Origin: Actinomycetota bacterium
GTDB taxonomy: Bacteria > Actinomycetota > Rubrobacteria > Rubrobacterales > Rubrobacteraceae
DNA length: 39,942 nt
NCBI GenBank assembly: GCA_902810695.1
Contig: CADDYV010000032.1
Coordinates: 1 to 39,942, forward strand
Direction: 5' to 3'
The position numbers and the translations under genes are program-made. Shown here piece after piece: positions 9,171 through 38,148 of this stretch. Within the stretch, counting starts at the first letter, position 1. Each line of letters starts with the position of its first letter. The notes beneath the pieces are model-generated. The model searched no databases. It had not been told where the DNA came from and worked only from the letters and a program-made list of their open reading frames with translations.

Positions 9171-9203
9171 TACACAAACAATTGTGGAGATTTGGGGTGT
9201 AGC

Positions 9204-10085: not shown

Positions 10086-10831
10086 GCTCTCCGGCACAGA
10101 TCCCTGGAGGTAGCAAGGTGAGACCCGTTCTGATTCGCCAGCACGACGACACAACACCGCCCGGCCTGCTCGTGGACTGGTTGCGAGAGCGCGGCATTCC
10201 GTTCGAGGTCCAGCACTCCTGGAATGAGACAGAAGCTCCCGATCCTGCGAATTATTCGTTCGTGGCCTCGTTGGGCGCTCCGTACAGCCCGCGCGACACG
10301 CACGAGCCTGCGGTCGTGGAAGAGTTGAAGTTGATCGGGAATGCGGTAGAGCGTGAAGTGCCCGTGCTCGGGCTGTGCTTCGGCGGAGAGGTGCTCTCTG
10401 CAGTTCTCGGCGGGCGTGTGGAGCAAGCCCCGACGCCCGAGCTGGGCTGGCGTGAGATCGAGACCGACGATCCAGCCATGATCCCGGCGGGTCCGTGGCT
10501 CGAATGGCACTACGAGCGTTTCACGACGCCGCCCGGCGCCGTCGAGCTGGCGCGTACGCCCGACGCGGTGCAGGCGTTCAGGTTCGGGCCGCACCTCGGG
10601 CTCCAGTTCCACCCGGAGAGCACCGTGGAGATCGTCTCCCGGTGGGCGAGCATGGATACCGAACGCCTGGCGGCGCTTGGCATCGAGGATGGAGCGGCGC
10701 TGATCTCCGCTCCGCCCGAGCGTCGGGAGACGGCCAGGAAGGCCGCCTTCCATCTCTTTGACGCGTTCTTGGCCGACGCAGTGGAGGACGGTCCCAGAGA
10801 ATCAGCCGGCCATGCCGGCAGGAAGGAGTAA
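10082..10831 (+). CDS. Class I glutamine amidotransferase-like protein
   Basis: A 249-residue stand-alone GATase1 domain with a complete triad: the nucleophile elbow VLGLCFGGEVLSAVLGG (Cys about residue 99), and LQFHPEST (His-x-Glu near 178). There is no synthase domain. Immediately before a glutamine-synthetase-like ligase, the best parallels are the amidotransferase-like proteins paired with gamma-glutamylanilide synthase in aniline degradation (AtdA2/TdnT type) and, by function, PuuD in putrescine degradation. A role in hydrolysing a gamma-glutamyl amide to release glutamate, or in supplying ammonia, is inferred. The ATG at 10082 overlaps the previous stop (ATGA), with GAGGAG upstream. Confidence 0.8.
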   Translation: MSSPAQIPGGSKVRPVLIRQHDDTTPPGLLVDWLRERGIPFEVQHSWNETEAPDPANYSFVASLGAPYSPRDTHEPAVVEELKLIGNAVEREVPVLGLCFGGEVLSAVLGGRVEQAPTPELGWREIETDDPAMIPAGPWLEWHYERFTTPPGAVELARTPDAVQAFRFGPHLGLQFHPESTVEIVSRWASMDTERLAALGIEDGAALISAPPERRETARKAAFHLFDAFLADAVEDGPRESAGHAGRKE

Positions 10832-10833
10832 TC

Positions 10834-12177: not shown

Positions 12178-12187
12178 GAGGAGGGCC

Positions 12188-13423
12188 ATGACAGACGTAG
12201 CAGAGACCGTACCGCTGGAGGAGATAGACCTCTCCGACCCCGGGGCCTTCGCCGAGCGGGTCCCCCACGAGTGGTTCCGCACCCTGCGCCGGGAGGACCC
12301 CGTCCACTTCAACCCCGAGCCCGAGGGCCCCGGCTTCTGGGCCGTGACCCGCTACTGGGACATCCGGGAGGTCCACCGCCGCTGGGACATCTACTCCTCC
12401 GAGATCGGGGGGACCTCGCTCGAGGACCTGGAGCCCGACCAGATCGAAGCCCGCAAGTCCATGATCGACCTCGACCCGCCGCGACACGACGAGATCCGGG
12501 GCCTCATCAAGAGCCGCTTCGCCCCGCGGGCGGTGAGGGAGTGGGAGGAGCAGGTGCGCGCTATCGCCCGCAAGGTGATAGACCTCGCGCTGCCCAAGGG
12601 CGAGTTCGACTTCGTCCTGGAGGTCTCCTCGGAGATCCCGATGCAGGTCTTCGCCGAGATCCTCGGCATCCCGCAGGAGGAGCGCCGCTACATCATCGAG
12701 CTCGGCGACCACCTGCTCGGCAACCAGGACCCGGAGTTCGCCCGGCCTCCGGAGAAACCCGAGCACCGGCTGCTGCCCTTCTCCAGCCCGGTGGCGCTGG
12801 AGATGTTCGAGTTCGGGCGCAGGCTCGCCGAGGAGCGGCGCCGCAACCCGAGAAACGACATCATCACCCAGCTCGCGTTCGGGGGGCTCACCCAGCGCGA
12901 GTACGACGTCAACTTCGTGCTGCTCGCGGCGGCGGGCAACGAGACCACCCGGCACACCATCACCCACGGCCTGCTCGCCCTGATCGAGAACCCCGACCAG
13001 CTCGAGCGCCTGCGGCGCGACCCTTCCCTCTACCCCGCGGCCGCAGAGGAGATGCTCCGCTGGGCGACCCCGGTCCACCACTTCCGGCGCACCACGACGC
13101 GCGAGACCGAGCTGGCGGGGACCAGGATCCCGGCCGGGGCGAAGGTGACGACCTGGTTCACCTCGGGCAACCGTGACGAGACCGTCTTCGAGAACCCGGA
13201 CACCTTCGACGTCGGCAGAGATCCGAACCGGCACATGACCTTCGGTCCCGGCGGGAAGCACTTCTGCCTGGGCGCCCACCTGGCGCGCCTGGAGGTACGG
13301 GTGGTCTTCGAGGAGCTCCTGCCGCGCCTGCGCTCCGTCGAGCTCGCCGGGCCGGTCAAGCGGCTGCGCTCCAACTTCTTCAACGGCATCAAGCAGATGC
13401 CGGTCCGGGTGGAGGCCGCGTGA
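12188..13423 (+). CDS. Cytochrome P450
   Basis: A complete 411-residue bacterial class I P450. The I-helix motif is LAAAGNETTRHT (oxygen activation, around 240-250), the K-helix ExxR is in EEMLRW, and the haem loop is TFGPGGKHFCLGAHLARLE (Cys ligand about residue 360). The sequence DLDPPRHDEIRGLIKSRFAP is typical of the CYP124/125/142-like actinobacterial group. It is soluble, with no membrane anchor. No ferredoxin or reductase gene is nearby, so redox partners must come from elsewhere. In the operon it replaces the Rieske dioxygenase or amine oxidase of related amine pathways, and probably hydroxylates or dealkylates the substrate. It starts 10 nt after the ligase stop behind GGAGGAGG. Confidence 0.95.
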   Translation: MTDVAETVPLEEIDLSDPGAFAERVPHEWFRTLRREDPVHFNPEPEGPGFWAVTRYWDIREVHRRWDIYSSEIGGTSLEDLEPDQIEARKSMIDLDPPRHDEIRGLIKSRFAPRAVREWEEQVRAIARKVIDLALPKGEFDFVLEVSSEIPMQVFAEILGIPQEERRYIIELGDHLLGNQDPEFARPPEKPEHRLLPFSSPVALEMFEFGRRLAEERRRNPRNDIITQLAFGGLTQREYDVNFVLLAAAGNETTRHTITHGLLALIENPDQLERLRRDPSLYPAAAEEMLRWATPVHHFRRTTTRETELAGTRIPAGAKVTTWFTSGNRDETVFENPDTFDVGRDPNRHMTFGPGGKHFCLGAHLARLEVRVVFEELLPRLRSVELAGPVKRLRSNFFNGIKQMPVRVEAA

Positions 13424-14343
13424 TCTCGCTGCGCCGCATAGACCACGTGAGCCTAAGTACAACCGACCTCCCGGACGCCGCCCGGCGCTGGTCGCTCCAG
13501 TTCGGACTCGTCGAGCGGGAGCGCGACGAGCGCCGGGCGCGCCTAGCCTGCGATGACGAGCCGTTCTCGCTGGAGCTCGTCGCCGCCGAAGCTCCCGGCC
13601 TGGACCACGTCGCCTACGAGCTGCGCCGGTCGTGCACCCCCGACGACGCGAGGAGGCACTTCGACGGGCTCGGGGTCGCGTGGGAGGAGAAGGAGGGCTC
13701 TCTGGAGGTCGCCGACCCGGAGGGCAACCGCGTGCGGGTGCTCCCCTACCGGGAGCCGAAGGAGCGCTGGACGCCGCACGCACGAGCGGCCCGAGATCAG
13801 ATCCTCGGCCACCCCCGCAAGCTCGGCCACGTCAACTTCCTGACCGGTGCGATCTCCGAGGGCGTGGACTTTTACACCCGCGTGCTCGGGATGAGGGTCA
13901 CGGACTGGCTCGGCGACGGCGGCGTGTGGTTCCACGTAAACAGCGACCATCACGTGATGGCGCTGGTAGACAAAGGATATTCCCACTTCCACCACCTCGC
14001 CTTCGACGTGGTGGACATCGGCCAGATGCGGGTCGCCCTCGATCACCTCGGGCGCCACGGCCGCTGGCTGGGCTGGGGCCCGACGCGCCACGGCGTGGGC
14101 GGAAACATCGCCTCCTACGTGCGGATCGTCGAGGAGGAGTGCTTCGTGGAGCTCTACTGCGACATGGAGCAGCTAGAAGCCGACCACGAGCCACGCCGCT
14201 GGCCCGACAACCGCTTCTCCTCCAACACCTGGGGGCCGCTGCCGCCCCGCTCCTACTTCCGCTTCGATGAGGCGGCGATCGCCTCCGAGTGCGAGAGCCT
14301 CGAGATGCTCGGCCAGCCGCTACCACAGGAGGTTTCCAGTTGA
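13420..14343 (+). CDS. Extradiol ring-cleavage dioxygenase (VOC superfamily, two-domain)
   Basis: A 307-residue type I extradiol dioxygenase with two VOC modules. The second module holds a full 2-His-1-carboxylate set: KLGHVNFLTG (His about 137), YSHFHHLAFDVVD (His) and EECFVELYCDM (Glu). Active-site support residues occur in HVNSDHHVMALV. The first module (RIDHVSLSTTDLPDAARRW) is the usual degenerate structural half. Such enzymes cleave catechols next to the hydroxyl pair to a semialdehyde, which suits the aldehyde dehydrogenase and FAH enzyme in the operon. The C-terminal signature deviates from classical catechol 2,3-dioxygenases, so the catechol is unidentified. The GTG at 13420 overlaps the P450 stop (GTGA). 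Confidence 0.85.
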   Translation: MISLRRIDHVSLSTTDLPDAARRWSLQFGLVERERDERRARLACDDEPFSLELVAAEAPGLDHVAYELRRSCTPDDARRHFDGLGVAWEEKEGSLEVADPEGNRVRVLPYREPKERWTPHARAARDQILGHPRKLGHVNFLTGAISEGVDFYTRVLGMRVTDWLGDGGVWFHVNSDHHVMALVDKGYSHFHHLAFDVVDIGQMRVALDHLGRHGRWLGWGPTRHGVGGNIASYVRIVEEECFVELYCDMEQLEADHEPRRWPDNRFSSNTWGPLPPRSYFRFDEAAIASECESLEMLGQPLPQEVSS

Positions 14344-15140
14344 TCCTGAAAGGTTACTCCATCCCCCGCACGAGCACCGGCCGGGCGAGCCTCGTCCCCG
14401 CGCCGCCGTGGCACTACGTGGGCGACTTCCTCGTCGTGGACTACTGGGCCAACCCCGACGCCGTCCGCGCCGTTCTGCCCGAGGACCTCGACCCGCACCC
14501 GGACCCCGGCCGCTGCGCCGCGGTCTTCGCCGACTGGCAGTCGTGCTCCGACGGCGGCGAGGAGCTGCTGGACCCGGTCCGGTCGCACTACCGCGAGTTC
14601 TTCATCGTGGCGAACGCGCTGCTGAACGGAGAGGAAGTTACGACCTGCCCGTTCATCTGGGTGGACCAGGACTTCGCGCTCGCGCGCGGTTGGATTCAGG
14701 GCTTCCCCAAGAAGCTCGGTTCGATCTGGATGACCCGCACCTTCGGCCTGGACCTGCCCGCCGACCCCGGACTCAAAGCCGGGGCTCGTCACGGCGCGAC
14801 GTGCTCGGCGCGAGGGCGGCAGATAGCCGAAGCTACCCTGACCATCGAGGGAGAGAGCGATGACGGCCCGCGCCACAACGCCCCGCCCATCGTCAACGTG
14901 CGCCACTTCCCGCGGCTCGCCGCCGGGCACCACGACGACCCGCAGGTGCACGAGCTGGTCCGCGCCGTAAGCCGCGACCGGGCGATGTCGAAGGTGGTCG
15001 CCGGGCCGGCGACGCTCACCCTGCATCCGGCACCCGGCGAGGAGCACGACACTTTAGCTCCGGTGAGGATAGACCGCGGGTACCGCTTCACGTTCGGCTA
15101 CACGGTAGACGACCTCGAGACCGTAAAGGAGCTCGTATGA
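14340..15140 (+). CDS. Acetoacetate decarboxylase family protein
   Basis: A 266-residue ADC-superfamily protein. The Schiff-base lysine region is intact in RGWIQGFPKKLGSIWMT, equivalent to the YPKKLG motif of clostridial acetoacetate decarboxylase. It shares the PPWHYVGDFLVVDYWANPD entry and the early acidic residues typical of the fold. Members can be decarboxylases or, like Swit_4259 from Sphingomonas, pyruvate aldolase-dehydratases. The start is TTG at 14340, overlapping the dioxygenase stop (TTGA) and preceded at 8 nt by a consensus AGGAGG; a longer in-frame ATG at 14289 lacks such a site. Within this meta-cleavage-type operon it may decarboxylate a ring-fission product or perform the missing retro-aldol step. 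Confidence 0.82.
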   Translation: MILKGYSIPRTSTGRASLVPAPPWHYVGDFLVVDYWANPDAVRAVLPEDLDPHPDPGRCAAVFADWQSCSDGGEELLDPVRSHYREFFIVANALLNGEEVTTCPFIWVDQDFALARGWIQGFPKKLGSIWMTRTFGLDLPADPGLKAGARHGATCSARGRQIAEATLTIEGESDDGPRHNAPPIVNVRHFPRLAAGHHDDPQVHELVRAVSRDRAMSKVVAGPATLTLHPAPGEEHDTLAPVRIDRGYRFTFGYTVDDLETVKELV

Positions 15141-16603
15141 CCTCAGTAACGGAACGCATCAAGGTCGCGGGAGTCGAGGTCTCGCCCGACCACTTCATCG
15201 GCGGCGAGCGGGTGGCGAGCGAACGTCGCTTCGAGGACATCTCCCCGATAACGGGCGAGGTCATCGCGGAGGTCTCGCGCGCCGGAGAGGAGGAGGTTGA
15301 CCGGGCGGTGCGCGCCGCGCGCGACGCCTTCCCGGAGTGGGCCGCTTTGGGACCGGCGGGCCGCTCGCCCTACCTGCACCGCCTCGCCGACCTGATCGAT
15401 GCCAACGTCGAGAGGCTCGCCGCGGTCGAGTGCGAGGACATGGCGATGCTGCTGCGCTCTCTGCGGGCGCGCGTGATATCACGCGGGGCGCGCAACTACC
15501 GCTCCTACGCCGACCTCGCCGCTTCGTACGAGGAGCGCGACTGGCGCTCGCAGGGCACCTGGAACCGGGTGCAGCGGATGCCCGCCGGGCCTGCGGCGGT
15601 GATCACGCCGTGGAACGCCCCGTTCATGCTCTCGACCTGGAAGACCGCTCCCGCCCTCGCCGCCGGGTGCACGGTGGTCCTCAAGCCCGCCGAGTGGTCG
15701 CCGCTCTCGTGCTCGCTGCTCGCGGACCTCGCGGAAGAGGCCGGGTTCCCGCCAGGGGTCTTCAACGTGATCCAGGGCACCGGTGAGGAGGCCGGGGCGG
15801 CGCTGGTGGCGCACCCGCTGCTGCGGCGCATATCCTTCACCGGCTCCCCGGAGACGGGGCGTCTGATCGGGGTCTCGGCGGCCAAGAATCTCGTGCCGTT
15901 CACCGCCGAGTTGGGCGGGAAGGGGCCCCTGATCGTCTTCGAGGACGCAGACCTCGACGCCGCCGCGCAGAAGGCCGCCGGCCAGTACGACGACGCGGGG
16001 CAGGTCTGCCTCGCCGGGACGCGACTGCTCGTGCAGGAGCCGGTCCTTGAGCCGTTCCTGGAGCGGTTCCACGCCGGGGTGGACGCGCACGTGCTCGGCG
16101 ACCCGCGCGAGGACGCCACCACGGTCTCGCCGCTCATCCACCCCGACCACCTCAAGCGCGTCGAAGGGTTCGTCGAGCGCGCCCGCTCTGAGGGGCACAA
16201 CGTCGTGCGCGGCGGGCGGTGCTCGGACGCGGGGCCGCTATTCTACGAGCCCACCCTGATCGAACCGCGCTCGAACGACGCCGAGATCGTCCAGCGCGAG
16301 GTCTTCGGCCCCGTCCTCACCCTCCAGACCTTCGCCGACGAGGAGGAGGCCGTCGCTCTGGCCAACTCCACCGAGTACGGTCTGTCGGGCATCGTCTACA
16401 CCTCCTCTCTCGGCCGAGCCGACCGCGTCGGGAGGGCGGTGCGCGCGGGTGTGGTGTGGGTCAACACCTTCCTGGTGCGCGACCTGACCGCCCCCTTCGG
16501 TGGGATGGGCATCTCCGGCATCGGGCGCGAGGGCGGCGACTACGCGCTGGACTTCTACTCCGACCTGAAGACCCTCCAGATCCTGGAGGGCAGCACCCGA
16601 TGA
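15137..16603 (+). CDS. Aldehyde dehydrogenase (HpaE/DmpC-like semialdehyde dehydrogenase)
   Basis: A 488-residue NAD(P)-dependent aldehyde dehydrogenase. It shows the oxyanion Asn in VITPWNAPFML, the cofactor Lys in VVLKPAEWSPLS, ISFTGSPETGRLI, the general-base Glu in TAELGGKGP and catalytic Cys in DDAGQVCLAG (about residue 290). The C-terminal EVFGPVLTLQTF and GGMGISGIGREGG segments resemble 5-carboxymethyl-2-hydroxymuconate and 2-hydroxymuconate semialdehyde dehydrogenases. Its location after an extradiol dioxygenase supports oxidation of a ring-cleavage semialdehyde; oxidation of an amine-derived aldehyde (as PuuC does) is the alternative. The ATG at 15137 overlaps the ADC stop (ATGA). Confidence 0.92.
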   Translation: MTSVTERIKVAGVEVSPDHFIGGERVASERRFEDISPITGEVIAEVSRAGEEEVDRAVRAARDAFPEWAALGPAGRSPYLHRLADLIDANVERLAAVECEDMAMLLRSLRARVISRGARNYRSYADLAASYEERDWRSQGTWNRVQRMPAGPAAVITPWNAPFMLSTWKTAPALAAGCTVVLKPAEWSPLSCSLLADLAEEAGFPPGVFNVIQGTGEEAGAALVAHPLLRRISFTGSPETGRLIGVSAAKNLVPFTAELGGKGPLIVFEDADLDAAAQKAAGQYDDAGQVCLAGTRLLVQEPVLEPFLERFHAGVDAHVLGDPREDATTVSPLIHPDHLKRVEGFVERARSEGHNVVRGGRCSDAGPLFYEPTLIEPRSNDAEIVQREVFGPVLTLQTFADEEEAVALANSTEYGLSGIVYTSSLGRADRVGRAVRAGVVWVNTFLVRDLTAPFGGMGISGIGREGGDYALDFYSDLKTLQILEGSTR

Positions 16604-17883
16604 ACGACGAGGCCCTCCTCGCCGCCGTCGCCGCCGAGGCGAAGTGGATGGAGGACCTCCTCGTCCGCCTCGTCGAGGCCCCGACCGTCCTCGGAGAGGA
16701 GGAGCCGGGACAGGAGATCATGGAGGAAGCTTTCGCCGGCTGCGGGCTCGAAGCGCGCAGCGTGCCGCTCGACGCCAGCGCTTTGCGCACCGCAACGGGC
16801 TCCTCCCCGTTTACCTGGGACGTGAGCGGCAAGCGCAACGTCGTGGCCGACTGGCAACCCGGCGACGAGGGCGGGCGCTCGCTGATCCTCAACGGCCATG
16901 TGGATGTCGTCCCGCTGGCCAACGAGGAGTTGTGGACGCACCCGCCCTTTAAGGCGGTACGCGAGGGCGACTGGGTCTATGGCCGTGGGGCCGGAGACAT
17001 GAAGGCGGGTCTCGCCGCGATGACCGGTGCGGTGCGGGCACTCATCCGCGCCGGGTACGCACCTGCAGCCCCACTCCAGTTGCAGTCCGTGGTGGAGGAG
17101 GAGTGCACGGGCCACGGCGCCCTGCAGTGCCTGCTCGACGGGGCGCATGCGGACGCGTGCATCATCACCGAGCCGCACCCAGACCACATAACCGTGGCCC
17201 AGGTCGGGGTGCTGTGGTTCCACGTAGACATCGCCGGCATTCCGGCGCACGCGGCCCGCGCGAGCCGGCTCGGCTTCAACGCCATTGACGCCGCGTGCGG
17301 TGTGCTGGCGGCGCTCCGAAACCTGGAGGAGCACCTCAATGTGGACCCACCGGCGCCTTTCGACACATTCGAGCACCCCATCAACCTCAATCCGGGTGTG
17401 ATATCGGGTGGCGACTGGCCCTCTACCGTCGCGGCTTCCTGCACGCTCTCATGCCGGATCGGACTGTATCCTGGGCAGGAGCCCGAGGAGATGCGCACCC
17501 TGGTCGAAGAGGCGGTCGCCGAAGCTGCAGAGTCAGATCCCCGGCTATCCAACAACCCGCCGCGGGTGCGCTACGAGGGTTTCTCGTGCGAGGGATCTAT
17601 CGTGGATCGTAACGAACCGGTCGTCACCGCGCTCTCGGATGCGTACTCGCGCGTGCATGAGGAGAGGCCCGAGCTGCTGGCTACGACCGCCACGACTGAT
17701 GCCCGCCACTTCATAAGGGCGGGAATACCTGCCGTTTGCTTCGGCCCGCGTGCGGAGCAGATCCACGGTATTGACGAACGCGTCTCGCTGCGCTCGGTTA
17801 TCGAGTCCGCGCAGGTGCTCGGGCTCTTCATCAGGGACTGGTGCGGCCTCATCCGAGAGTCGAACCGAAAGGAGAGAAAGTAA
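16600..17883 (+). CDS. M20 family amidohydrolase (ArgE/DapE-like deacylase)
   Basis: A 427-residue M20 zinc amidohydrolase. Visible metal and catalytic motifs are LILNGHVDVVPL (His-x-Asp), YGRGAGDMKAGLAAM (bridging Asp), SVVEEECTGHGAL (Glu-Glu) and the late IPAVCFGPRAEQIHG (His). The dimerisation lid insertion (IAGIPAHAARASRLGFNAI) is present. Family members hydrolyse N-acyl amino acids or other amides. In this operon it could release an N-acyl or N-gamma-glutamyl group or open an amide intermediate. The ATG at 16600 overlaps the aldehyde dehydrogenase stop (ATGA). Confidence 0.88.
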   Translation: MNDEALLAAVAAEAKWMEDLLVRLVEAPTVLGEEEPGQEIMEEAFAGCGLEARSVPLDASALRTATGSSPFTWDVSGKRNVVADWQPGDEGGRSLILNGHVDVVPLANEELWTHPPFKAVREGDWVYGRGAGDMKAGLAAMTGAVRALIRAGYAPAAPLQLQSVVEEECTGHGALQCLLDGAHADACIITEPHPDHITVAQVGVLWFHVDIAGIPAHAARASRLGFNAIDAACGVLAALRNLEEHLNVDPPAPFDTFEHPINLNPGVISGGDWPSTVAASCTLSCRIGLYPGQEPEEMRTLVEEAVAEAAESDPRLSNNPPRVRYEGFSCEGSIVDRNEPVVTALSDAYSRVHEERPELLATTATTDARHFIRAGIPAVCFGPRAEQIHGIDERVSLRSVIESAQVLGLFIRDWCGLIRESNRKERK

Positions 17884-19415
17884 TGTCCAACGTCGAGTCA
17901 ACAGCCACCCCAACGCCAGGTGCGGCGGAGTCCGGGAAGCTCCACCGGCGGGCACTCGGGGTGCCGGATCTCGTGTTTTTCATCGTCGCCGCCTCGGCGC
18001 CGCTGACCGCTGTAGCAGGCGGCCAGGCAACTACCTACCTGGTAACGGGCAACAAAGCCGTTCCGTTCATGTTTATTCCGCTCGGGATCGTGCTCGGGCT
18101 GTTCTCGATCGGCTACGCGGCGATGAGCCGCTACGTCGCCAACGCGGGCGCGTTCTATTCATACGTTTCCCGCGGTCTCGGCAAGCTGTCGGGTGTTGGC
18201 GCCGCCTTCGTGGCGCTCATCGCCTACAACTCCATGCAGATAGGCATCTACGGCCTCTTCGGCGTGGCACTCGGCGCGTTCATGTCCGGCAGGCTCGGCA
18301 TCAACGAGCCGTGGTGGGTGTGGTGTCTGCTCGGCTGGGCCATCATCGCCGTTCTGGGCGTGCTCCGGATAGACCTCAACGCCCGGGTGCTGGCCGTCCT
18401 CTTGATCCTCGAGGTGCTCGTCGTCGCGCTCTTTGACCTCGCGGTTCTGGGCCATCCCGGTCCCCAGGGGCTTGATATGGTCGGCTTCAACCCGGGCGTC
18501 GCGTTCGGCACGGCGGCAGGCTCTGCGCTCACGTTCAGCGTCGCCTCTTTCGTGGGTTTCGAGTCGGCGGCGATCTACTCCGAGGAGTGCCGCAACCCTA
18601 GCCGGACGGTCGCCCGGGCAACGATCCTGGCCGTCAGCCTGATCGCCTTTTTCTACGCCACCTCTAGCTGGCTGGTTGGGGTGGCCGCAGGCCCCGACAC
18701 GATAGTCAACCCGCAGGCCATGCTTAAAGCTGGATACGCTACCGCCGGCAACCCGGACCCGACGACGGTTCTGTTTATCGCGGGGCAGCAGCGCCTCGGT
18801 GCGATCTGGGGAGACGCCGCGTCGCTGTTGTTCGCCACTAGCCTGTTTGCCGCGCTGCTCTCTTTCCACAACGCGGTCGCCCGCTACACCTTCGCCCTGG
18901 GCCGGGAGGGCGTGCTCCCGCCGGTGTTCGGTCGCGTGCACGCGAACACGGGGGCGCCCGTGATCTCCTCGCTCGCCCAGTCGGTCCTGGCGGTTGTAGT
19001 GTTCGGCATCTTCGCGATTATCGGGGCGGACCCTCTGCTCAAGCTCTTTACCTGGCTGACCAACCTGGGTGCCCTGGGCGTGCTCTTGCTGATGACGGCG
19101 GCGTCTTTTGCGGTCGTGGGCTACTTCAGGCGACACCCCGAGCAGGAGTTGAGCCGCTGGGCGTCGGCCATCGCGCCATCGGTCGCCGGAGTGCTCCTGC
19201 TGATCGTGCTCGTGCTCGGCGTGGCGAACTTCAACGTCCTCATCACGGGCTCGACCGAGGCCCCGACGAACATCATGACGATCATACTCCCCATAATCTT
19301 GTTCGGGGGTGGACTCGCCGGTCTCGTTGTCGGCTCGGTGCTGAGGTCCCGCCGGCCCGACGTCTACCGCCGGATCGGTGCGGGCGCGGAAGCCGAGCGG
19401 CCACCGCAGCAGTGA
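17883..19415 (+). CDS. APC superfamily amino acid/amine permease
   Basis: A 510-residue membrane transporter with about 12 helices. The first helix HRRALGVPDLVFFIVAASAPL carries the APC unwound motif region, followed by GGQATTYLVTGNKAVPFMF. The central VASFVGFESAAIYSEECRNP and RTVARAT (helix 6 to loop 6-7) are signatures of amino acid-polyamine-organocation transporters. It starts at ATG 17883, sharing the A of the M20 stop (TAATG), behind AAGGAGAG. In the operon it is the natural uptake system for the amino acid or amine that the other enzymes process, as PuuP is for putrescine. Confidence 0.93.
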   Translation: MSNVESTATPTPGAAESGKLHRRALGVPDLVFFIVAASAPLTAVAGGQATTYLVTGNKAVPFMFIPLGIVLGLFSIGYAAMSRYVANAGAFYSYVSRGLGKLSGVGAAFVALIAYNSMQIGIYGLFGVALGAFMSGRLGINEPWWVWCLLGWAIIAVLGVLRIDLNARVLAVLLILEVLVVALFDLAVLGHPGPQGLDMVGFNPGVAFGTAAGSALTFSVASFVGFESAAIYSEECRNPSRTVARATILAVSLIAFFYATSSWLVGVAAGPDTIVNPQAMLKAGYATAGNPDPTTVLFIAGQQRLGAIWGDAASLLFATSLFAALLSFHNAVARYTFALGREGVLPPVFGRVHANTGAPVISSLAQSVLAVVVFGIFAIIGADPLLKLFTWLTNLGALGVLLLMTAASFAVVGYFRRHPEQELSRWASAIAPSVAGVLLLIVLVLGVANFNVLITGSTEAPTNIMTIILPIILFGGGLAGLVVGSVLRSRRPDVYRRIGAGAEAERPPQQ

Positions 19416-20866
19416 GCCCGCAGCCAGATGCGGCGCGGATGGGATCTGCGCCGCAACACGAGCAGGCCGACCTCCCCGCACTCGCCAACCGCGAAGGTGT
19501 TCTGACCGACCTGAGCCGCGTCATCACAGACGCCTGGGCATCCTTCGATGTGCCACGATCTTCCGAGCCGCAGCTCAGCGACGCCCTGGCTGCGCGTCTC
19601 GAAGCGCCGCTCCCCGAAGAGGCGGGCGACGCCGAGGAGGCCCTGGAGGATGCGGCCCGCATCCTGGATGCCAGTGTCTCTCCTTCGCGGCCGCTCTTCC
19701 TCGGCTATATCGGCTCTACGGGACTGGAGATCGGGGTGCTGGCATCCGCTCTTTTGGCAACCTACGACGTGAACCTCGCCACCTCTGCTGGCGGGGCGGA
19801 CCTGGTCGAACAGCAAACCCTGCGCTGGCTCGCGGAGTTCGTTGGTTTTCCGCTCGCGGAAGGCGCCTTCACCAGCGGCGGCATGACGTCGAACCTCACG
19901 GCGCTGCTCGCCGCGCGCGAGCGGGCGCTGCCGGGGTCCCGCGCCCAGGGGCTCGACGGCCGGCGGGCGGCGGTGTACTGCTCCGAGGAGGCCCACCACT
20001 CGGTGGTCCGTGCCGTCGAGGTCTGCGGGCTGGGAAGTGGTGCCGTCCGCCGCATTCCTATTGACAGCCGGCGTCGAATGAGGCCGGAGGCGCTCGATGA
20101 GGCGTTATCCTCAGACATCTCCGCCGGAGTCGTGCCCGTGGCCGTGGTGGCGACCGCGGGGACGACGCTCACGGGAGCCGTGGACCCACTTAGTGCGATA
20201 GCTGATGTTTGCACGCGCCACGGCGCATGGCTGCACGTTGATGGCGCGTACGGGCTTCCGGGGGCGGCTGCGCCGAGTACAGCATCGTTATTTGCCGGTC
20301 TGGAGCGCGCCGACTCGGCAACCGTTGATGCGCACAAGTGGCTCGGCGTGCAGAAGAGCTGCAGCGCCGTCCTGATGCGGGAAGCCGGGCGGCTGCAGGC
20401 GGCGTTCGGCCACGAGGAGCAGTACATGCCGCACGACGGCGACGTCGCCAACCCGGTTGACCGAACGCTCGAGTACTCGCGCCCGTTTCGTTCCCTGAGA
20501 CTGTGGATGGCCTTCCGCGTCCACGGTGCCGTCCAGTATAGAGCCTGGATCGAGCGTGCCCTCGCCAACGCCCGCCACTTCACCGACTTGTTGCGCGCGA
20601 CGCCCGAGTTCGAGCTTCTCCACGACCCGATGCTCTCGATCGTCTGCTTTCGGCACGCGCCGCCCGGCGTTGACAACCTCGACTCGCACAACATCCGGCT
20701 CGCCCGCGAGATGCAGCGCGACGGGCGCGTCTTTCTCGCCCCCGCCTCTGTTGACGACCGGGCCTGCCTGCGCGCATGTTTCGTTAACTTCCGCACGACG
20801 TTCGAGGAGGTCGAACACGTGCTAGAGGTTGCCCAGGAGATCGGCCACAGCCTGAGCCGGGGCTGA
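19412..20866 (+). CDS. PLP-dependent group II decarboxylase (aromatic-amino-acid decarboxylase-like)
   Basis: A 484-residue fold-type I PLP enzyme. The PLP lysine lies in ATVDAHKWLGVQKS (about residue 309). The phosphate-binding and stacking regions appear as FTSGGMTSNLTALLAA and CSEEAHHSVVRAVE, and the Asp contacting the pyridine nitrogen in WLHVDGAYG. The C-terminal EYSRPFRSLRLWMAFRVHG is typical of DOPA/tyrosine/tryptophan or glutamate decarboxylases. It would decarboxylate an L-amino acid to the amine. Last gene of the operon; the GTG at 19412 overlaps the permease stop (GTGA). It may create the amine that the ligase gamma-glutamylates, which fits an amino acid imported by the adjacent permease. 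The specificity is not determinable here. Confidence 0.9.
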   Translation: MSPQPDAARMGSAPQHEQADLPALANREGVLTDLSRVITDAWASFDVPRSSEPQLSDALAARLEAPLPEEAGDAEEALEDAARILDASVSPSRPLFLGYIGSTGLEIGVLASALLATYDVNLATSAGGADLVEQQTLRWLAEFVGFPLAEGAFTSGGMTSNLTALLAARERALPGSRAQGLDGRRAAVYCSEEAHHSVVRAVEVCGLGSGAVRRIPIDSRRRMRPEALDEALSSDISAGVVPVAVVATAGTTLTGAVDPLSAIADVCTRHGAWLHVDGAYGLPGAAAPSTASLFAGLERADSATVDAHKWLGVQKSCSAVLMREAGRLQAAFGHEEQYMPHDGDVANPVDRTLEYSRPFRSLRLWMAFRVHGAVQYRAWIERALANARHFTDLLRATPEFELLHDPMLSIVCFRHAPPGVDNLDSHNIRLAREMQRDGRVFLAPASVDDRACLRACFVNFRTTFEEVEHVLEVAQEIGHSLSRG

Positions 20867-21427: not shown

Positions 21428-22570
21428 TCAGCGGATGACGGGCCGCTTGTCTTTATGCAGGGAATTCATCAACTCCTGGCTCGCGTGCAGGTGGTCCTGC
21501 ACGAACTTCTGCGGGGTCAGCGCCATCCACTGGTTTAAGGATACATCGGCGAAGTGGTCGCTACGGAACATCTCCAGAAAACGCAGCGGTCCCTCGCCGG
21601 TGTTCTGGATGTAATGGCCCATGGCGAAGGGCACATAGCCCACGTCTCCCGCCTGGCAATCGAAGGTGCGGGCATGGGCTTCGGCTGCGAAGACGGTCAT
21701 GCGCCCCTTGCCCTCGATGTAGTACTGCCACTCGTCGTTGTTGGGGTGCCAGTGCATCTCGCGCATGCCGCCCGGCTCAAGCTCTACCAGCGCCGCCGCC
21801 ACGGTGGTAGCGGCGGGGAAGTTGGTGGAGTCGGTGATGCGCACCTGTCCGCCACTCGTCCGGATCGGCTCCTGCTCCAGCATCCGATGGCTGAAGTTTG
21901 TCGTGCCGTTTGGGGCGGAGACCTTCTCGCTCTCGAGCGGTCCGGGCACCTCGCCCTGGAAGATGTAGTGCTCACCCGAAGGAATATCCGCGAAGGCGCC
22001 CTCCGGCACGCCGAAGTTCGCCGCCAGCACGTCCTTCGGGGTGTGCGCGAACCAGTCGGTGATACTGAAGGTGCTGTTCTCGGAGAAGCTGCCATCGTCG
22101 AAGACCAGGATGAACTCGGCTCCCTCTTCGAGGCCCTGTATCGAGTGCGGGATGCCTGAAGGGAAGTTCCACAAATCTCCCACCCCGACATCATCTATGA
22201 AGTTGCGTCCTTCCTGGTCCACCGCCGTGATCCGGGCCCGCCCGTGGAGCATGAAGGCCCACTCGGCTTCCTTGTGCCAGTGCATCTCCCTGACTCCGCC
22301 CGGCGTCAGGCGCATATTCACTCCCGCCAGCGTCGTTGCGATCGGCAACTCGCGCACCGTTACCTCGCGCGACCAGCCACCTTCCTCCATCCGGCGGTGG
22401 GTGTCGGAGTAAGAGAACTTCAGGTTGTAGAACGTGCCCGAGTCGGTCTCCGGGGGAACCGAGAGGTCCGGGTTCTGGAGATCCCTCTCAATGTTTCTGG
22501 GACCGGGGTCGGTCGCACCAGCATTCCCCCTTATCGGCTGCGGCACCCGATCCCGAGATGACCCGCTCAT
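21428..22570 (-). CDS. oxdC: Oxalate decarboxylase, bicupin
   Basis: A 380-residue bicupin. Both manganese sites are visible: cupin 1 with [20 protein letters not shown] and PHSIQGL, cupin 2 with [18 protein letters not shown] and GHYIQNTG. The flexible lid reads FSENSTFS; the SENST loop with its Glu is the hallmark of decarboxylase rather than oxidase activity. It should convert oxalate to formate and CO2. Length matches Bacillus OxdC (about 385). There is no signal peptide, so the protein is probably cytoplasmic. The ATG at 22570 follows AAGGAGG. A formate-using enzyme or oxalate transporter is not visible in the window. Confidence 0.95.
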
Positions 22571-32243: not shown

Positions 32244-32783
32244 TCAGTATCCCAGTACCAGCATGACGCCCGTGATCAGGAGCCCCACGCCACAGAGGAG
32301 ATCGGAGCGGACGGGTATGAAGCGGGCGAGGGCTCCCCCGAGCTTCAGGCCGAGGAGCGACATCAAGGCCGTGATGGCACCGAAGACTATTGCCGTGAAC
32401 ACGGGGGAAAAGCCGAGCATCCCCAGGCCGGTGCCCGCGAGCAAATTGTCCAGGCTCAGAGATAGAGGGATGCCGAAGAGCGCCATGCGGTCATCCAGAT
32501 CCTCCGGAGCTTCGGCTCGCAGCCCCTGAACGACGAGGTACAGGCCATACGCAGCCAGCACGATCGGCCCCAGAGTATCCGCCGCCGGGCCGATCGCCTG
32601 CCCGAAGTAGCGTCCGATCAGCACACCCACCAGGGGCGAGAGACCGTCCCAGAACCCGAACACCACCGCCGTCCGGAGTGCCCGGCGCCAGCCGAGCTTA
32701 AAGGTTCCTAGCGCGATCGACAGCCGGAAATTATCCAGGCTGAGGACGAAACCGAGGATGAGAAGGGATATCAGGGCATCCAT
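32244..32783 (-). CDS. MntP/YtaF-like manganese efflux pump family protein
   Basis: A 179-residue, six-helix membrane protein with the duplicated MntP layout: LGFVLSLDNFRLSIALGTFK in helix 1 and FGIPLSLSLDNLLAGTGLGM in helix 4, where the paired LSLDN replaces the DAF motif of E. coli MntP. Family members export Mn(II). It is the last gene of the PQQ operon: the ATG at 32783 starts 5 nt after the pqqE stop with AAAGG upstream. A metal-handling role next to a metal-dependent PQQ dehydrogenase is plausible, although the ion is unknown. Confidence 0.75.
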   Translation of the reverse strand: MDALISLLILGFVLSLDNFRLSIALGTFKLGWRRALRTAVVFGFWDGLSPLVGVLIGRYFGQAIGPAADTLGPIVLAAYGLYLVVQGLRAEAPEDLDDRMALFGIPLSLSLDNLLAGTGLGMLGFSPVFTAIVFGAITALMSLLGLKLGGALARFIPVRSDLLCGVGLLITGVMLVLGY

Positions 32784-32788
32784 AGCCT

Positions 32789-33880
32789 TTATGTCTGGCG
32801 AGCCGTATAGGTACGGGGAACGAGATCTTCTTCGCCTGACTCTGCACCCTCGTTGGCAGCCTGCACCGCCTCCTCCACGATCCCGTGGTCCGGGGAGAGG
32901 TAACAGACCGGATCGGTGCGCGCGGCATCTCCGGTGAGTTGAAACGCCTGGCAGCGGCAACCGCCGAAGTCAACCTCGCGACGATTACAGCTCCGGCAGG
33001 GCTCCGGCATCCACTCCGTTCCCCGGAAGCGCCGGAAGAGCGGCGACTCCTCCCAGATCCAGGCCAGCGAGTGCTCGCGCACGGTGGCCCGAGGAAGATT
33101 TAGGGTGTGCGCTGCGGGGCAGGGCAGGACATCCCCGTTGGGTGTTACCGTCAGCTGCTGCCGACCCCAGCCGCCCATGCAGGGCTTCGGGTACTTGCTG
33201 TAGTAATCGGGGATGACGTAGATGATCTCCATCTTCCCCTCCAGTCGCCGGCGTGCGGCGCGTACTATCTCCTCGGCCCTATCGAGCTGAGCCCTGCTCG
33301 GCAAGAGGGCTGCGCGGTTGCGCCAGGCCCAGCCGTAGTACTGGGTATTGGCCAGCTCGATCCGGTCGGCTTCCAACTCCTCGGCCAGATCTAGGATGCG
33401 CCCGATTCTGTCGAGGTTGTGGCGGTGGAGGACCACATTCATTGTGAGCGGCCAGCCCAGCTCCTTGACCAGACGGTATGCCGCGATCTTGCGTTCGTAG
33501 GAACGGGTGCCGGCGATGCGGTCGGAGAGAGCGGGCTCGTCGGCCTGGATGCTGATCTGTACGTGGTCGAGCCCAGCGTCCTTTAGCTCTTGTGCCAGCC
33601 GGGGCGAGAGACCTATTGCGCTCGTAATGAGGTTGGTGTACAGACCCAGGTCGCGGGCGTCTCCCACAAGCTCTACAAGATCACGGCGCTGGAGCGGCTC
33701 ACCGCCAGAGAGGTGAAGCTGTAGGACGCCGAGCTCCCGCGCTTCGATTAACACCCGCTGCCACTCCGCCGTAGTCAACTCTTCATGGTAGTCTGAGAGG
33801 TTGAGAGGGTTGGAGCAGTACGGGCAATGCAACGGGCACTTGTAAGTGAGCTCGGCCAGCATGCCGAAGGGCCTATTCAT
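32789..33880 (-). CDS. pqqE: PqqA peptide cyclase (radical SAM)
   Basis: A 363-residue radical SAM enzyme that forms the Glu-Tyr C-C crosslink in PqqA, the first chemical step of PQQ synthesis. The cluster motif is TYKCPLHCPYCSNPL (C-x3-C-x2-C), followed by LHLSGGEPLQR and VQISIQADEP. The SPASM-region cysteines appear in PCMGGWG, VLPCPAAHT, PEPCRSCNRREVDFGGCRCQ and DPVCYLS, enough for auxiliary Fe-S clusters. The ATG at 33880 ([15 protein letters not shown]) overlaps the pqqD end by 8 nt and is preferred over an upstream in-frame start. Confidence 0.95.
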   Translation of the reverse strand: MNRPFGMLAELTYKCPLHCPYCSNPLNLSDYHEELTTAEWQRVLIEARELGVLQLHLSGGEPLQRRDLVELVGDARDLGLYTNLITSAIGLSPRLAQELKDAGLDHVQISIQADEPALSDRIAGTRSYERKIAAYRLVKELGWPLTMNVVLHRHNLDRIGRILDLAEELEADRIELANTQYYGWAWRNRAALLPSRAQLDRAEEIVRAARRRLEGKMEIIYVIPDYYSKYPKPCMGGWGRQQLTVTPNGDVLPCPAAHTLNLPRATVREHSLAWIWEESPLFRRFRGTEWMPEPCRSCNRREVDFGGCRCQAFQLTGDAARTDPVCYLSPDHGIVEEAVQAANEGAESGEEDLVPRTYTARQT

Positions 33881-34154
33881 CGCCAAGCTCCACCCATCGC
33901 TTGGCAACTAGCCGGGCGAGGAAATCGTGCACCTCATCGCTGTCCACGCGATTGTACTGTCCGCGCAGCTCCTCCACGATATCAGCGACCGTCCGCTCTC
34001 CATCGCAAAGGCCCAGGATGTCCGCGCCCGTCTGGTTCAGGACCAGCACCCCCTCCGGCGCCAGCAGCACCTGCCGTTCGCGCACGGGGTCCCACTCCAG
34101 CCGGACCTGCCGCGCCAGATGAGGGCGATTCGTAGATAGTATCCCGGTGCTCAT
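33873..34154 (-). CDS. pqqD: PQQ peptide chaperone PqqD
   Basis: A 93-residue PqqD that binds PqqA and presents it to PqqE (RiPP recognition element). Visible are [20 protein letters not shown], the [18 protein letters not shown] strand-helix, [15 protein letters not shown], and the C-terminal helix [16 protein letters not shown], all matching the PqqD winged helix. The ATG at 34154 shares ATGA with the pqqC stop, so translation is coupled. Both PqqD and PqqE are separate proteins here, not fused. Confidence 0.93.
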
Positions 34155-34858
34155 GCATCCTCCTCTCGAGTGCTGCTCGAATAAGCCCGCTCGATAGCGT
34201 CCAGCATGCTCCACAGCACATCATTTTTGAAGGAGAGTGCCGCCACGGCCCGCGCCTGCTCATCGGGCGTCCGGCAGTGCTCTATCACCACCTCCAGGGC
34301 GTGCTCCGAGTCGCGCGGGGCCTGCGTAAGGCGGGCGCGAAAATAGGCCAGTCCGTCGGGATCTATCCAGGTATAGAGTCGCTCGAACGCCCTTAGACGC
34401 TCTGCCATCAGATCCGGCGCAAATAGCTCGGTCAGCGAGGAGGCCACCGCCTCGACCCACGGGCGGGTGCGGGCGAAGTTGACGTAGGCATCTACGGCGA
34501 ACCGCACCCCGGGCACGACGTGCCGCTCGTCCCACACCTCCTCCCGCGTCAGCCCCACGGCCTCACCCAGGCACAGCCACGCCTCGATCCCCCCCTCGCC
34601 CTCCGCTGTTCCATCATGGTCGAGGATGCGTTGGATCCAACGCCGCCGTACCTCGCGGTCGGGACAGTTGGAGAGGATGGCGGCGTCCTTGCGTGGGATG
34701 TTCTTCTGATAGTAGAAGCGGTTGGCCACCCAGCCCTGGATCTGGCGTCGGTTCAGGCGCCCCTCGTTCATCTTCACGTGGAATGGATGCCGGCTGTGGT
34801 AGCTCTGCGACTGGGCGCGCAGGGCCCCGATGAAGCTTTCGGTGTCGGATACCACCAA
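34151..34858 (-). CDS. pqqC: Pyrroloquinoline-quinone synthase PqqC
   Basis: A 235-residue cofactor-free oxidase that carries out the final ring closure and eight-electron oxidation to PQQ. Family features are [40 protein letters not shown], and [20 protein letters not shown], plus [16 protein letters not shown] and [14 protein letters not shown]. The start is TTG at 34858 with GGAG at 8 nt (a GTG at 34855 is the alternative), 2 nt after pqqB. Normal length. Confidence 0.95.
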
Positions 34859-34860
34859 TT

Positions 34861-35748
34861 TCAGATCTCCAGCTCTAGCCCATCCACGGCCACTTCCAGG
34901 CCACTCTCCTCGACGATGCGCCGCTCGGGCGCATCCTCAAGCAGGATGGGGTTGGTGTTGTTGATGTGGATGTAGATTTTGCGCTCGATGGAAAGCGAGG
35001 CTAGCTGCTTCAGGCTGCCATCGGCGCCGCCGATCGGCAGATGTCCCATCTCGCGCGACGTCTTACCGGCGATGCCGAGCCGGATCAGCTCGTCGTCCTG
35101 CCAGCAGGTCCCATCAAAGAGCAGGCATGTGCAGCCTTCCAACTGAGCACGCACCGATGCCGTCAACTCCTGCACACCCGGCAGGTACACCAGTACCCGA
35201 CCAGTACGCTCGTCGGTGATCCGGTACCCCACCACGCTCTCTTTTCCCACCCCGAAACGCGTCCGCTTGTCCGTAGGAACTTCAAACGCCTGGTAGGACA
35301 GACCATCCGTCAGGGAGACCTCTGTCCCCGTAGCAACCTGCCGCCACTCGACATGAGTATATGCGCCGAGTATCTGGAGTAGCGATGTGCCTCTGCAGAG
35401 CGTCTCGTGAACCGCCTCGGTGGCATGCACCTCGAGACGGGCAGCCTCCCGCAGCAGCAGCAGACCTAAAGTGTGATCCAGCTCCGCGTCGGTAAGCAAG
35501 ACGGCCTGCAACGGAGAATCCCTGATCCCACGTGGGTGCAGGGCCGGGAAGGACTCGATCTGAGCGTGAATGTCGGGTGAGGCGTTGAGCAAAAACCATC
35601 GCCGGTAGTCGGCACTCACCACGACCGACGACTGGGTGAGCGGATGGCAGGGCCGCGAGCCGTCGCGCACGGCCCGACACTGAGGGCAATTGCAGTTCCA
35701 CTGCGGAAATCCTCCTCCCGCTGCTGCTCCGAGCACACGCACCCACAC
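34861..35748 (-). CDS. pqqB: PQQ biosynthesis protein PqqB
   Basis: A 295-residue metallo-beta-lactamase-fold protein. PqqB hydroxylates the tyrosine of the PqqA-derived dipeptide. Conserved pieces are [66 protein letters not shown] and [21 protein letters not shown] place the start at GTG 35748 ([15 protein letters not shown]) because GGAGG lies 6 nt before it, while an ATG 6 nt upstream abuts that site. The zinc-binding Cys pair in CNCPQC is intact. Confidence 0.92.
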
Positions 35749-35794
35749 ACCCATCCTCCATCCAGATCGCCCCACGGCAAGATGGTGATCATGC

Positions 35795-35832: not shown

Positions 35833-35913
35833 CTACTCTTCCCAGCGACCGGCGTACGCGGTCACTTCAGCAGAGGTCCCGATCTCCTCGAATTCGGGGG
35901 TCTGCCACTCCAT
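35833..35913 (-). CDS. pqqA: PQQ precursor peptide PqqA
   Basis: A 26-residue peptide starting MEWQTPEFEEIGTSAEVTAY and ending AGRWEE. The Glu and Tyr of the E-V-T-A-Y motif are the residues crosslinked by PqqE and turned into PQQ, and the W-x-x-P-x-F-E-E-I leader fits PqqD-binding. The ATG at 35913 is preceded by a perfect AAAGGAGGTGA. It lies 65 nt after the dehydrogenase gene. This is the substrate peptide, not an enzyme, so its high expression relative to pqqB is expected. Confidence 0.93.
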   Translation of the reverse strand: MEWQTPEFEEIGTSAEVTAYAGRWEE

Positions 35914-35978: not shown

Positions 35979-37670
35979 CTATTCCGGCAGCGCGAAGACG
36001 AAGAGCGCGTCTCCCTGGGGTGCCCCGAGCATCATGGGCGCGAACCCTTCGGCCCAGGCACCAAACCCGACTGGCACGGCTATGTACTGCCTCCCGTCTA
36101 CGCTGTAGGTCGTCGGGCTGCTGTGGTGGCCGCTCCCGCACTGGAACTGCCACAACAGCTCTCCGGTGCGGGCGTCGAGCGCGTTGAACTCACCCGTAGG
36201 CTCGCCAGCGAACACGAGGTCGCCGCCCGTAGCCAAGACCGACGCGCACATCGGCACCTCGTTGCGCCAGCGCCACGCCTCCTTGCCGTTCGTCGGGTCG
36301 AACGCGCCCACGTAGCCGTACATGTCCTGGATATCCACCTCGACGCCGGCTCCCCAGTATGGGATGCTCTCCTTGAACTCCCTGCGTCGCCGCGTGGCCG
36401 TCGCACCGACCTCCTGTACCGGGGCGTAGAAGAGATGCGTCCTCGGGCTGTAGGCCGCGTGCGTCCATTCCTTGCCGCCGGCCGGCCCCGGCCAGAAGTG
36501 CACCGGTTCCCCCTCCTTCTCGGGGTACACCTTGCGGGTGATCTTACCGTCCGGGGTGACCTCACCCCACGTGATGCGGTCGACGAAGGGCGCGGCCCGC
36601 ACCAGCTCGCCGTTCGTGCGGTCCAGCACGTACCAGTACCCATTCTTGTCGAAGTGCGCGAGCAGCTTGCGTCCACCCTGCTCGAACAGGATGTTCTCCA
36701 TCGTGCTGTCGTAGTCCCACACGTCGTGCGGGTTGTACTGGTAGTGCCAGCGTATCTGGCCGCTGTCGGCGTCCACGGCGACGACGCTGTCGGTGTAGAG
36801 GTTGTCGCCCTCGCGGACTTCTCCGTCGAAGTCGGGCGCCGGGTTGCCGGTCCCCCAGTACAGGAGATTCAGATCCGGGTCGTAGGTGCCCGTAACCCAG
36901 CAGTTCGCACCGCCCCGCGCCCAGGCCTCACCTTCGGACGGCCAGGTCTCAGAACCGGGCTCTCCAGGCTTGGGTATCATGTAGCAGCGCCAGACGTGCT
37001 CTCCGGTCTCGAGTTTGAAGGCATCGAGGTGGCCGCGAACGCCGAACTCCCCACCGGAACTACCTACGATGACCATGTCCTTCACGACGAGGGGCGCGAC
37101 CGTGGCGCTCTCACCGGCCCGCACATCGCCGTAGGTCTTGTCCCAGACACATTCGCCGGTCTCGGCGTCGAGCGCGAGGATATGGGCGTTACCCGTGACG
37201 ACGAAGACCTTCCCCTCCGCCACGGCTACCCCGCGGTTGACGTTGCCGCAGCAGAGCGACACGTCGTACGGGATCGCATGCTTGTACCGCCACAGCTCCT
37301 GCCCGGTTTTGGCGTCGAGGGCCCAGACCCAGCCATCCCAGCCCGAGACGAACATGACCCCGTCCACGACGATCGGGGCGGCCTCGAACGAGTACGTTGA
37401 CGCGCCCGAGTGCATACCCACCGAGCCACACTGGAAGGCCCACGCGGGAGTGAGACGCTTGACGTTCTCCGTGTTGATCTGGTCCAGCGGGCTGTAGCGC
37501 TGCCCGTCGTAAGCGCCGTAGTAGGTGAGCCAGTTCTGCGGTTCTCGCTCACGGGCGTTGAGAATACGCTCGTAGGTGACGCCCCGGACGACCGGCGGCG
37601 CCTTCCCAACCATGCTGCTCAGGGATGCGTGCCTGACGGCATGCCCTGCGTCTACGTATTCGGTTGTCAT
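35979..37670 (-). CDS. PQQ-dependent alcohol dehydrogenase with a DYD (lanthanide-type) site
   Basis: A 563-residue eight-bladed quinoprotein without a haem c domain (type I). The vicinal cysteines near PQQ are in YDVSLCCGNVNRGVAV. The catalytic Asp lies in YNPHDVWDYDSTMENI: an Asp two residues after it (D-Y-D) is the signature of lanthanide-dependent XoxF/PedH enzymes, where Ca-dependent MxaF has Ala. WDALDAKTG-like blade repeats recur (VWALDAKTGQELW, ILALDAETGECVW). Unexpectedly, the N-terminus (TTEYVDAGHAVRHASLSS) has no hydrophobic signal. The ATG at 37670 has AAAGGAG 6 nt upstream. It oxidises an unknown primary alcohol with an electron acceptor not encoded nearby. Confidence 0.92.
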   Translation of the reverse strand: MTTEYVDAGHAVRHASLSSMVGKAPPVVRGVTYERILNAREREPQNWLTYYGAYDGQRYSPLDQINTENVKRLTPAWAFQCGSVGMHSGASTYSFEAAPIVVDGVMFVSGWDGWVWALDAKTGQELWRYKHAIPYDVSLCCGNVNRGVAVAEGKVFVVTGNAHILALDAETGECVWDKTYGDVRAGESATVAPLVVKDMVIVGSSGGEFGVRGHLDAFKLETGEHVWRCYMIPKPGEPGSETWPSEGEAWARGGANCWVTGTYDPDLNLLYWGTGNPAPDFDGEVREGDNLYTDSVVAVDADSGQIRWHYQYNPHDVWDYDSTMENILFEQGGRKLLAHFDKNGYWYVLDRTNGELVRAAPFVDRITWGEVTPDGKITRKVYPEKEGEPVHFWPGPAGGKEWTHAAYSPRTHLFYAPVQEVGATATRRRREFKESIPYWGAGVEVDIQDMYGYVGAFDPTNGKEAWRWRNEVPMCASVLATGGDLVFAGEPTGEFNALDARTGELLWQFQCGSGHHSSPTTYSVDGRQYIAVPVGFGAWAEGFAPMMLGAPQGDALFVFALPE

Positions 37671-37683
37671 CAACTGCTCCTTT

Positions 37684-38148
37684 CTACGGCCGTGGCTGCT
37701 CCGGTCGGTCGAGACGAGCCTCCGGTGGAGCGTCCCCTAGCACGACGATCGCGCCGGTCAGGCCCCGCCCTTCATCGTTGCCCGTACGGGAGCCGTACCA
37801 GTAGTAGCCCGGGCCGTCGAGGTTGAGGCTGGCCGTTCCTCGTGAATGGTTCACCAACCAGATGAACTGGTTGTCACCATTGCTCGGCAAGACCGCGCAG
37901 TGGGTGTTGTCGTCGTCGTTGAAGATCTCGAGCTCGAGATCTCCACCATGGGGCAAGACGAGGATCGAGGGCTCCCAGACTAGCTCATCGGGTGGGATCC
38001 GGATCTGGGCGTGCATGCGGCCGTCGGGTCCCTCCTCGGCTTGCGCGAGACTCCCGTGGGCGAGCAGCCGTCCCAGAGTCCCCTTGTTTTGCCTGTCCAG
38101 CCCTAACTCGCTCATCACCCCGGATAGTTCCCCTCCGGTGGTCGCCAT
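37684..38148 (-). CDS. PQQ-associated cupredoxin-like protein (MSMEG_3727 type)
   Basis: A 154-residue protein matching my memory of the MSMEG_3727 family, coded next to PQQ dehydrogenases in actinobacteria. It shows a cupredoxin-like fold in the multicopper style (LVLPHGGDLELEIFNDDDNT, HCAVLPSNGDNQFIWLVNHS, GYYWYGSRTGNDEGRGLTGA) without the full blue-copper ligand set. The ATG at 38148 lies 8 nt after AGGAGG; an in-frame GTG at 38157 overlaps that site. First gene of the PQQ operon, 13 nt before the dehydrogenase. It may be an electron-transfer or assembly partner. Like the dehydrogenase it has no signal peptide. Confidence 0.8.
   Translation of the reverse strand: MATTGGELSGVMSELGLDRQNKGTLGRLLAHGSLAQAEEGPDGRMHAQIRIPPDELVWEPSILVLPHGGDLELEIFNDDDNTHCAVLPSNGDNQFIWLVNHSRGTASLNLDGPGYYWYGSRTGNDEGRGLTGAIVVLGDAPPEARLDRPEQPRP

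Follow-up and report, generated by a model that had tools for sequence, protein, structure and literature searches.

Known lanthanide enzymes are periplasmic. One of them, PedH, was recognized in much the same way as the enzyme described here, by an Asp replacing the Ser of PedE, and was then subjected to lanthanide tests (PMC5487730). A PQQ-dependent alcohol dehydrogenase (ADH) is also encoded in M. smegmatis, where MSMEG_3721-3727 combines the PQQ-ADH MSMEG_3726 and MSMEG_3727 with PQQ genes and has been described as PQQ biosynthesis and its dehydrogenase (PMC3023750, PMC6529628; gene content as described in these papers). Growth of M. smegmatis on ethanol was mycofactocin dependent under the conditions used. 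In the accessible part of the open literature, we found no work on the metal of the ADH clade described below or of actinobacterial PQQ ADHs, although these sequences may already be listed in a survey of alcohol dehydrogenases that use rare-earth elements.

The stretch of DNA analyzed here, a 39,942-nucleotide contig (the window; all coordinates are positions within the whole of it), comes from a genome that shares its family-level group with Rubrobacter marinus, and the labels G023 and L058 denote one and the same locus in our data. It carries a cassette resembling MSMEG_3721-3727, in the order MSMEG_3727-family gene, ADH, pqqA, pqqB, pqqC, pqqD, pqqE, and MntP-family gene on the minus strand, which is met by a convergent transporter gene:

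37684..38148, minus strand: cupredoxin-like protein of the MSMEG_3727 family (TIGR04339/PF23509) that lacks type-1 copper ligands; likely ATG at 38148, longest open reading frame from GTG at 38157
35979..37670, minus strand: PQQ-dependent ADH (TIGR03075), 563 aa, without signal peptide
35833..35913, minus strand: pqqA, precursor peptide of 26 aa with E-x3-Y, above the TIGR02107 cut-off
34861..35754, minus strand: pqqB (TIGR02108), start inferred
34151..34858, minus strand: pqqC (TIGR02111)
33873..34154, minus strand: pqqD (TIGR03859), inferred ATG start overlapping the pqqC stop
32789..33880, minus strand: pqqE, radical SAM protein (TIGR02109), start inferred
32244..32783, minus strand: cation transporter of the MntP family whose start lies a few bases past pqqE; no other MntP match occurs in the genome
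31135..32076, plus strand: Na/Ca-exchanger family transporter, convergent with the operon and putatively part of the same system

The ADH gene runs from an ATG at 37670, with a GGAG Shine-Dalgarno sequence just 5′ of it, to a stop at 35979, exactly the interval originally predicted. That prediction also placed the gene in an operon with complete PQQ synthesis, and PqqA, B, C, D, and E all score above the NCBIfam cut-offs; these genes support the use of PQQ, not of a rare-earth metal. The ADH scores 626 bits against TIGR03075, the methanol/ethanol family of PQQ dehydrogenases (cut-off 480), versus 206 against the membrane glucose dehydrogenase model TIGR03074, far under that family's cut-off of 833, and it is the sole full TIGR03075 member in the genome. 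Since a mycofactocin maturase is also encoded, the genome probably holds two cofactor systems for alcohol oxidation. Our best explanation, that this is the single PQQ-dependent ADH of a Rubrobacter-like actinobacterium, encoded in an MSMEG_3721-3727-like cassette, kept in the cytoplasm, and loaded there with PQQ and a lanthanide, stands as a whole at about even chances in our judgment.

By sequence and by fold, the nearest solved structure is lanthanide-dependent PedH (38-39% identity, TM 0.82), followed in the fold ranking of the ADH model by quinohaemoprotein ADHs, ExaA, and XoxF. The genome collection contained 474 matching stretches, and the 80 examined were nearly all actinobacterial, including Streptomyces, Pseudonocardia, Saccharopolyspora, and Geodermatophilus. 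The same operon occurs on a contig labeled Bacillota (Centralia MAG 97; L076), which is basal in the tree and represents either a transfer or mis-binning.

We aligned the window protein with 85 ortholog rows from actinobacteria, with reference proteins taken from plasmid records, and with sequences of PDB entries. The residues discussed below are encoded as follows:

37248..37253, minus strand: C140-C141, vicinal cysteine pair of the PQQ pocket, in 85/85 rows
37047..37049, minus strand: E208, aligned metal ligand (E177 of MxaF), with Gly just before it
36843..36845, minus strand: N276, aligned metal ligand (N261 of MxaF)
36705..36719, minus strand: WDYDS, residues 318-322, with catalytic D319 and extra metal ligand D321, invariant in 85/85 rows
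36468..36470, minus strand: E401, replacing the PQQ-contacting N394, Glu in 85/85 rows

The original prediction rested on a D-Y-D motif whose second Asp would be the extra ligand of XoxF and PedH, and the alignment does place this motif at the metal site: E208, N276, D319, and D321 match the ligands of PedH and XoxF and are invariant in all 85 orthologs, so that D321 is not a chance motif. WDYDS falls in the column of WDFDG in PedH (6zcv) and WDYDG in XoxF (4mae), whereas the Ca enzymes lack the second Asp (WDFSG in ExaA 1flg, WDFTA in ADH-IIB 1kv9, and WDFAG/WDYAG in MxaF 1g72/4tqo); the residue at column 321 is thus Asp in the PedH and XoxF rows, Ala in MxaF, Ser in ExaA, and Thr in the quinohaemoprotein ADHs. 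The position preceding the Glu ligand divides the enzymes in the same manner, being Gly in the ADH and the DYD rows, while the known Ca rows have Ala or Asp there. The further claim, that Ca enzymes have no second Asp, is valid for the methanol/ethanol family but not beyond it, because the membrane glucose dehydrogenase Gcd of E. coli has WDMD at the same column, although Gcd lacks the Glu and Asn ligands. The structure model of the ADH was used for overall fold only, as its pLDDT is below 50 at residues 319-321 and the geometry of the metal site is not confirmable from it.

Like the metal ligands, the vicinal Cys pair and the floor Trp are invariant in the 85 rows. Three changes in the PQQ pocket extend across the clade: K342 for R331, E401 for N394, and C475 for W476, the last being Cys in 80 of 85 rows. 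E401 and C475 are absent from the other enzymes compared. Because these changes are clade-wide, cofactor or metal preference may differ from that of the known enzymes. In the phylogenetic tree, the actinobacterial rows form one clade (100/100) separate from the XoxF/MxaF and PedH/ExaA clades (100/100), and all characterized DYD enzymes in the panel fall within the XoxF or PedH clades; since the ADH lies outside these characterized lanthanide clades, the metal assignment depends on the ligand set and not on clade membership. The predicted rare-earth use is accordingly upheld as far as the ligand set and preceding Gly are concerned, and qualified by the separate clade and the three altered pocket positions. 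On this sequence evidence, lanthanide use by the ADH is likely, and we regard a lanthanide as its probable metal.

Resemblance to each described enzyme is therefore partial. The ADH shares with PedH/ExaF the four metal ligands, the Gly before the Glu ligand, and the closest structural match but differs in its separate clade, in its K342, E401, and C475, and in having neither a signal peptide nor a cytochrome partner gene; the separate clade and missing partner genes rule out that it is PedH/ExaF itself. It shares DYD and the full ligand set with XoxF, from which it differs in the W476 and N394 positions and the lack of a signal peptide, and its separate clade and missing xoxG/xoxJ neighbors rule out that it is XoxF. 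The Ca-dependent ExaA/PedE and MxaF have in common with it the fold, the outline of the PQQ pocket, and the catalytic Asp but carry Ser or Ala in place of D321 (PMC5487730). Gcd (TIGR03074) has Asp at the 321 column (WDMD) but differs in having membrane helices and neither the Glu nor the Asn ligand. In two loci from other families of the phylum (L026 and L027), open frames of 742-743 aa encode PQQ-ADH-like proteins whose N-termini resemble those of lipoproteins and whose metal site reads WDYDAP; these are possibly exported proteins of the DYD type. A WDFDG relative at a third locus (L025; G177 C2:453248-454012), with 65% identity in the C-terminal half and a TGA stop inside the match, has probably decayed.

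The point that changes the biology most is one that the original prediction did not raise, namely the missing export signal. Judged by a hydropathy calculation, no signal peptide was found on the ADH or its MSMEG_3727-family partner in 86 loci, and no hydrophobic N-terminus was seen in the partner. Ahead of the domain, the ADH carries instead an N-terminal tail of ∼44 residues that is hydrophilic and conserved (consensus xTxEYVDAGxAVDQGxLS). The maximum 12-residue hydropathy of these tails in the 86 loci is 0.3-1.6 (median 0.94, 95th percentile 1.36), versus 1.8-2.2 for five proteobacterial signal peptides by the same measure; paired basic residues are absent from the tail in 84 of 85 cases, and a lipobox Cys was found in none of 85. 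A longer N-terminus is impossible in most loci because usually just 10-60 bp separate the end of the MSMEG_3727 gene from the ADH start. As both proteins lack a signal peptide in 86 loci and there is mostly no room for one, the ADH family is predicted to be cytoplasmic: a cytosolic pair of ADH and MSMEG_3727-family protein would be the simplest reading, and we think it quite probable that the ADH stays inside the cell. The chief sequence feature against a cytosolic location is the conserved vicinal Cys pair, which in known enzymes is a disulfide formed outside the cytoplasm.

The partner protein scores 273 bits against TIGR04339 (cut-off 75), and its gene adjoins the ADH gene in 86 of 86 loci. 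Across 396 genomes of the phylum, it co-occurs with the ADH and pqqC in the same family-level group, the exceptions being two other PQQ users and cases that are incomplete or fragmentary. Its structure model (pLDDT 73.6) most often finds cupredoxin domains among the top PDB matches, at TM values of only ∼0.3-0.5. In nearly all rows, the sequence S-x2-GNDEGRGL occupies the copper loop at the C-terminal end and offers no Cys, His, or Met ligands; this makes type-1 copper electron transfer unlikely and led us to reject the family as a copper electron acceptor. Nor was a gene for a cytochrome c or a substrate-binding protein conserved near the ADH in 79 loci, in which neighbors were clustered with a codon-composition filter against antisense frames; five CxxCH matches proved to be four frames antisense to the ADH and one CPYCH protein from a single locus. 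Lacking both copper ligands in the partner and a conserved cytochrome c nearby, the system is expected to use MSMEG_3727 for docking or metallation and to have its electron acceptor elsewhere. No other exported-protein gene is conserved in the neighborhood.

Two other kinds of gene recur around the cassette. Among 71 loci with enough downstream sequence, which share ancestry, 58 have a cation transporter near the operon (MntP type in 40, Na/Ca-exchanger type in 18) and 13 have neither; because positions and strands vary between groups, this link does not reflect a single frozen gene order. Both types together were found in none of the 71, but the window holds both, and they are therefore not strict alternatives. 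As a rule, MntP proteins and Na/Ca exchangers export Mn and Ca and do not import lanthanides. Even so, a gene for metal handling fits next to an enzyme predicted to be a cytosolic metalloenzyme. The window that holds MntP also encodes a bicupin of the oxalate decarboxylase family (21428-22570; 583 bits versus 254), usually a Mn enzyme. The second recurrent neighbor is catalase-peroxidase KatG (1144 bits to TIGR00198), which 49 of 71 loci, mostly those of Streptomyces, Pseudonocardiaceae, and relatives, carry close to the MSMEG_3727-ADH pair. It lies ∼3 kb from the ADH in L041, L108, and 47 further loci, nearly always upstream and on the same strand, and usually beside a LytTR regulator with a DhaR-like N-terminus. 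Neither KatG nor a haem catalase was found in the window's genome, which rules out KatG as a general part of the system.

In the mechanism that we propose, PqqBCDE would make PQQ from the operon's own PqqA, and the apo-ADH would remain in the cytoplasm and bind PQQ there together with a trivalent lanthanide, with E208, N276, D319, and D321 as the metal ligands. With D319 as base, alcohol would be oxidized to aldehyde; the linked cation transporter may set the supply or removal of the metal, and the electron acceptor is expected to be encoded elsewhere. We put forward tentatively, as a possibility somewhat short of probable, a cytosolic DYD-type PQQ ADH that both receives its metal and acts within the cell, combined with a cupredoxin-like partner lacking copper and an operon-linked MntP or Na/Ca-exchanger-type transporter that handles lanthanide.

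A cytosolic PQQ ADH that uses Mg, Ca, or Mn and no lanthanide, with the transporter managing Mn or Ca, would suit the Mn and Ca families to which the neighboring transporters belong and the pocket changes that set the ADH clade apart. The second Asp would then serve a divalent ion, as in the membrane glucose dehydrogenases, for Gcd has an Asp there. Gcd, however, is without the Glu and Asn ligands that the ADH keeps, and across the whole panel of the methanol/ethanol family the Asp splits the known lanthanide from the known Ca enzymes, so that we consider divalent metal use rather unlikely. Somewhat less probable again is a lanthanide-dependent ADH with the same site that acts outside the membrane, reached by nonclassical export or carried by a signal-bearing partner encoded elsewhere. 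Known PQQ ADHs do act outside the cytoplasm (PMC5487730), and the cysteines that form the disulfide in known enzymes are invariant, but neither the ADH nor its invariant partner has a signal, no exported neighbor is conserved, and the tail that stands in place of a signal is itself conserved and hydrophilic.

The KatG association raises a different prospect for the Streptomyces/Pseudonocardiaceae branch, where the reduced ADH might give its electrons to oxygen and the upstream KatG remove the peroxide, making the enzyme a quinoprotein alcohol oxidase. The recurrent upstream, same-strand placement of KatG speaks for this, as does the lack of a conserved cytochrome c nearby and of a visible redox centre in MSMEG_3727. 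We nonetheless judge this improbable: quinoproteins are normally poor with oxygen, KatG may form a transcription unit of its own, governed by the LytTR regulator, and the window's genome has no peroxide-removing enzyme of either kind.

If the preferred cytosolic lanthanide reading is true, it would be surprising in placing a lanthanide enzyme in the cytosol, a new location for rare-earth biology, and it would bring a large Gram-positive group within the range of rare-earth biochemistry. It would also give testable roles to the MSMEG_3727 family and to the operon-linked MntP or Na/Ca-exchanger transporter, and tractable hosts exist. Elsewhere in the window, a catabolic run on the plus strand (9192-20866) encodes an FAA hydrolase, glutamine synthetase, P450, glyoxalase-like protein, acetoacetate decarboxylase, aldehyde dehydrogenase, M20 peptidase, amino-acid permease, and PLP decarboxylase.
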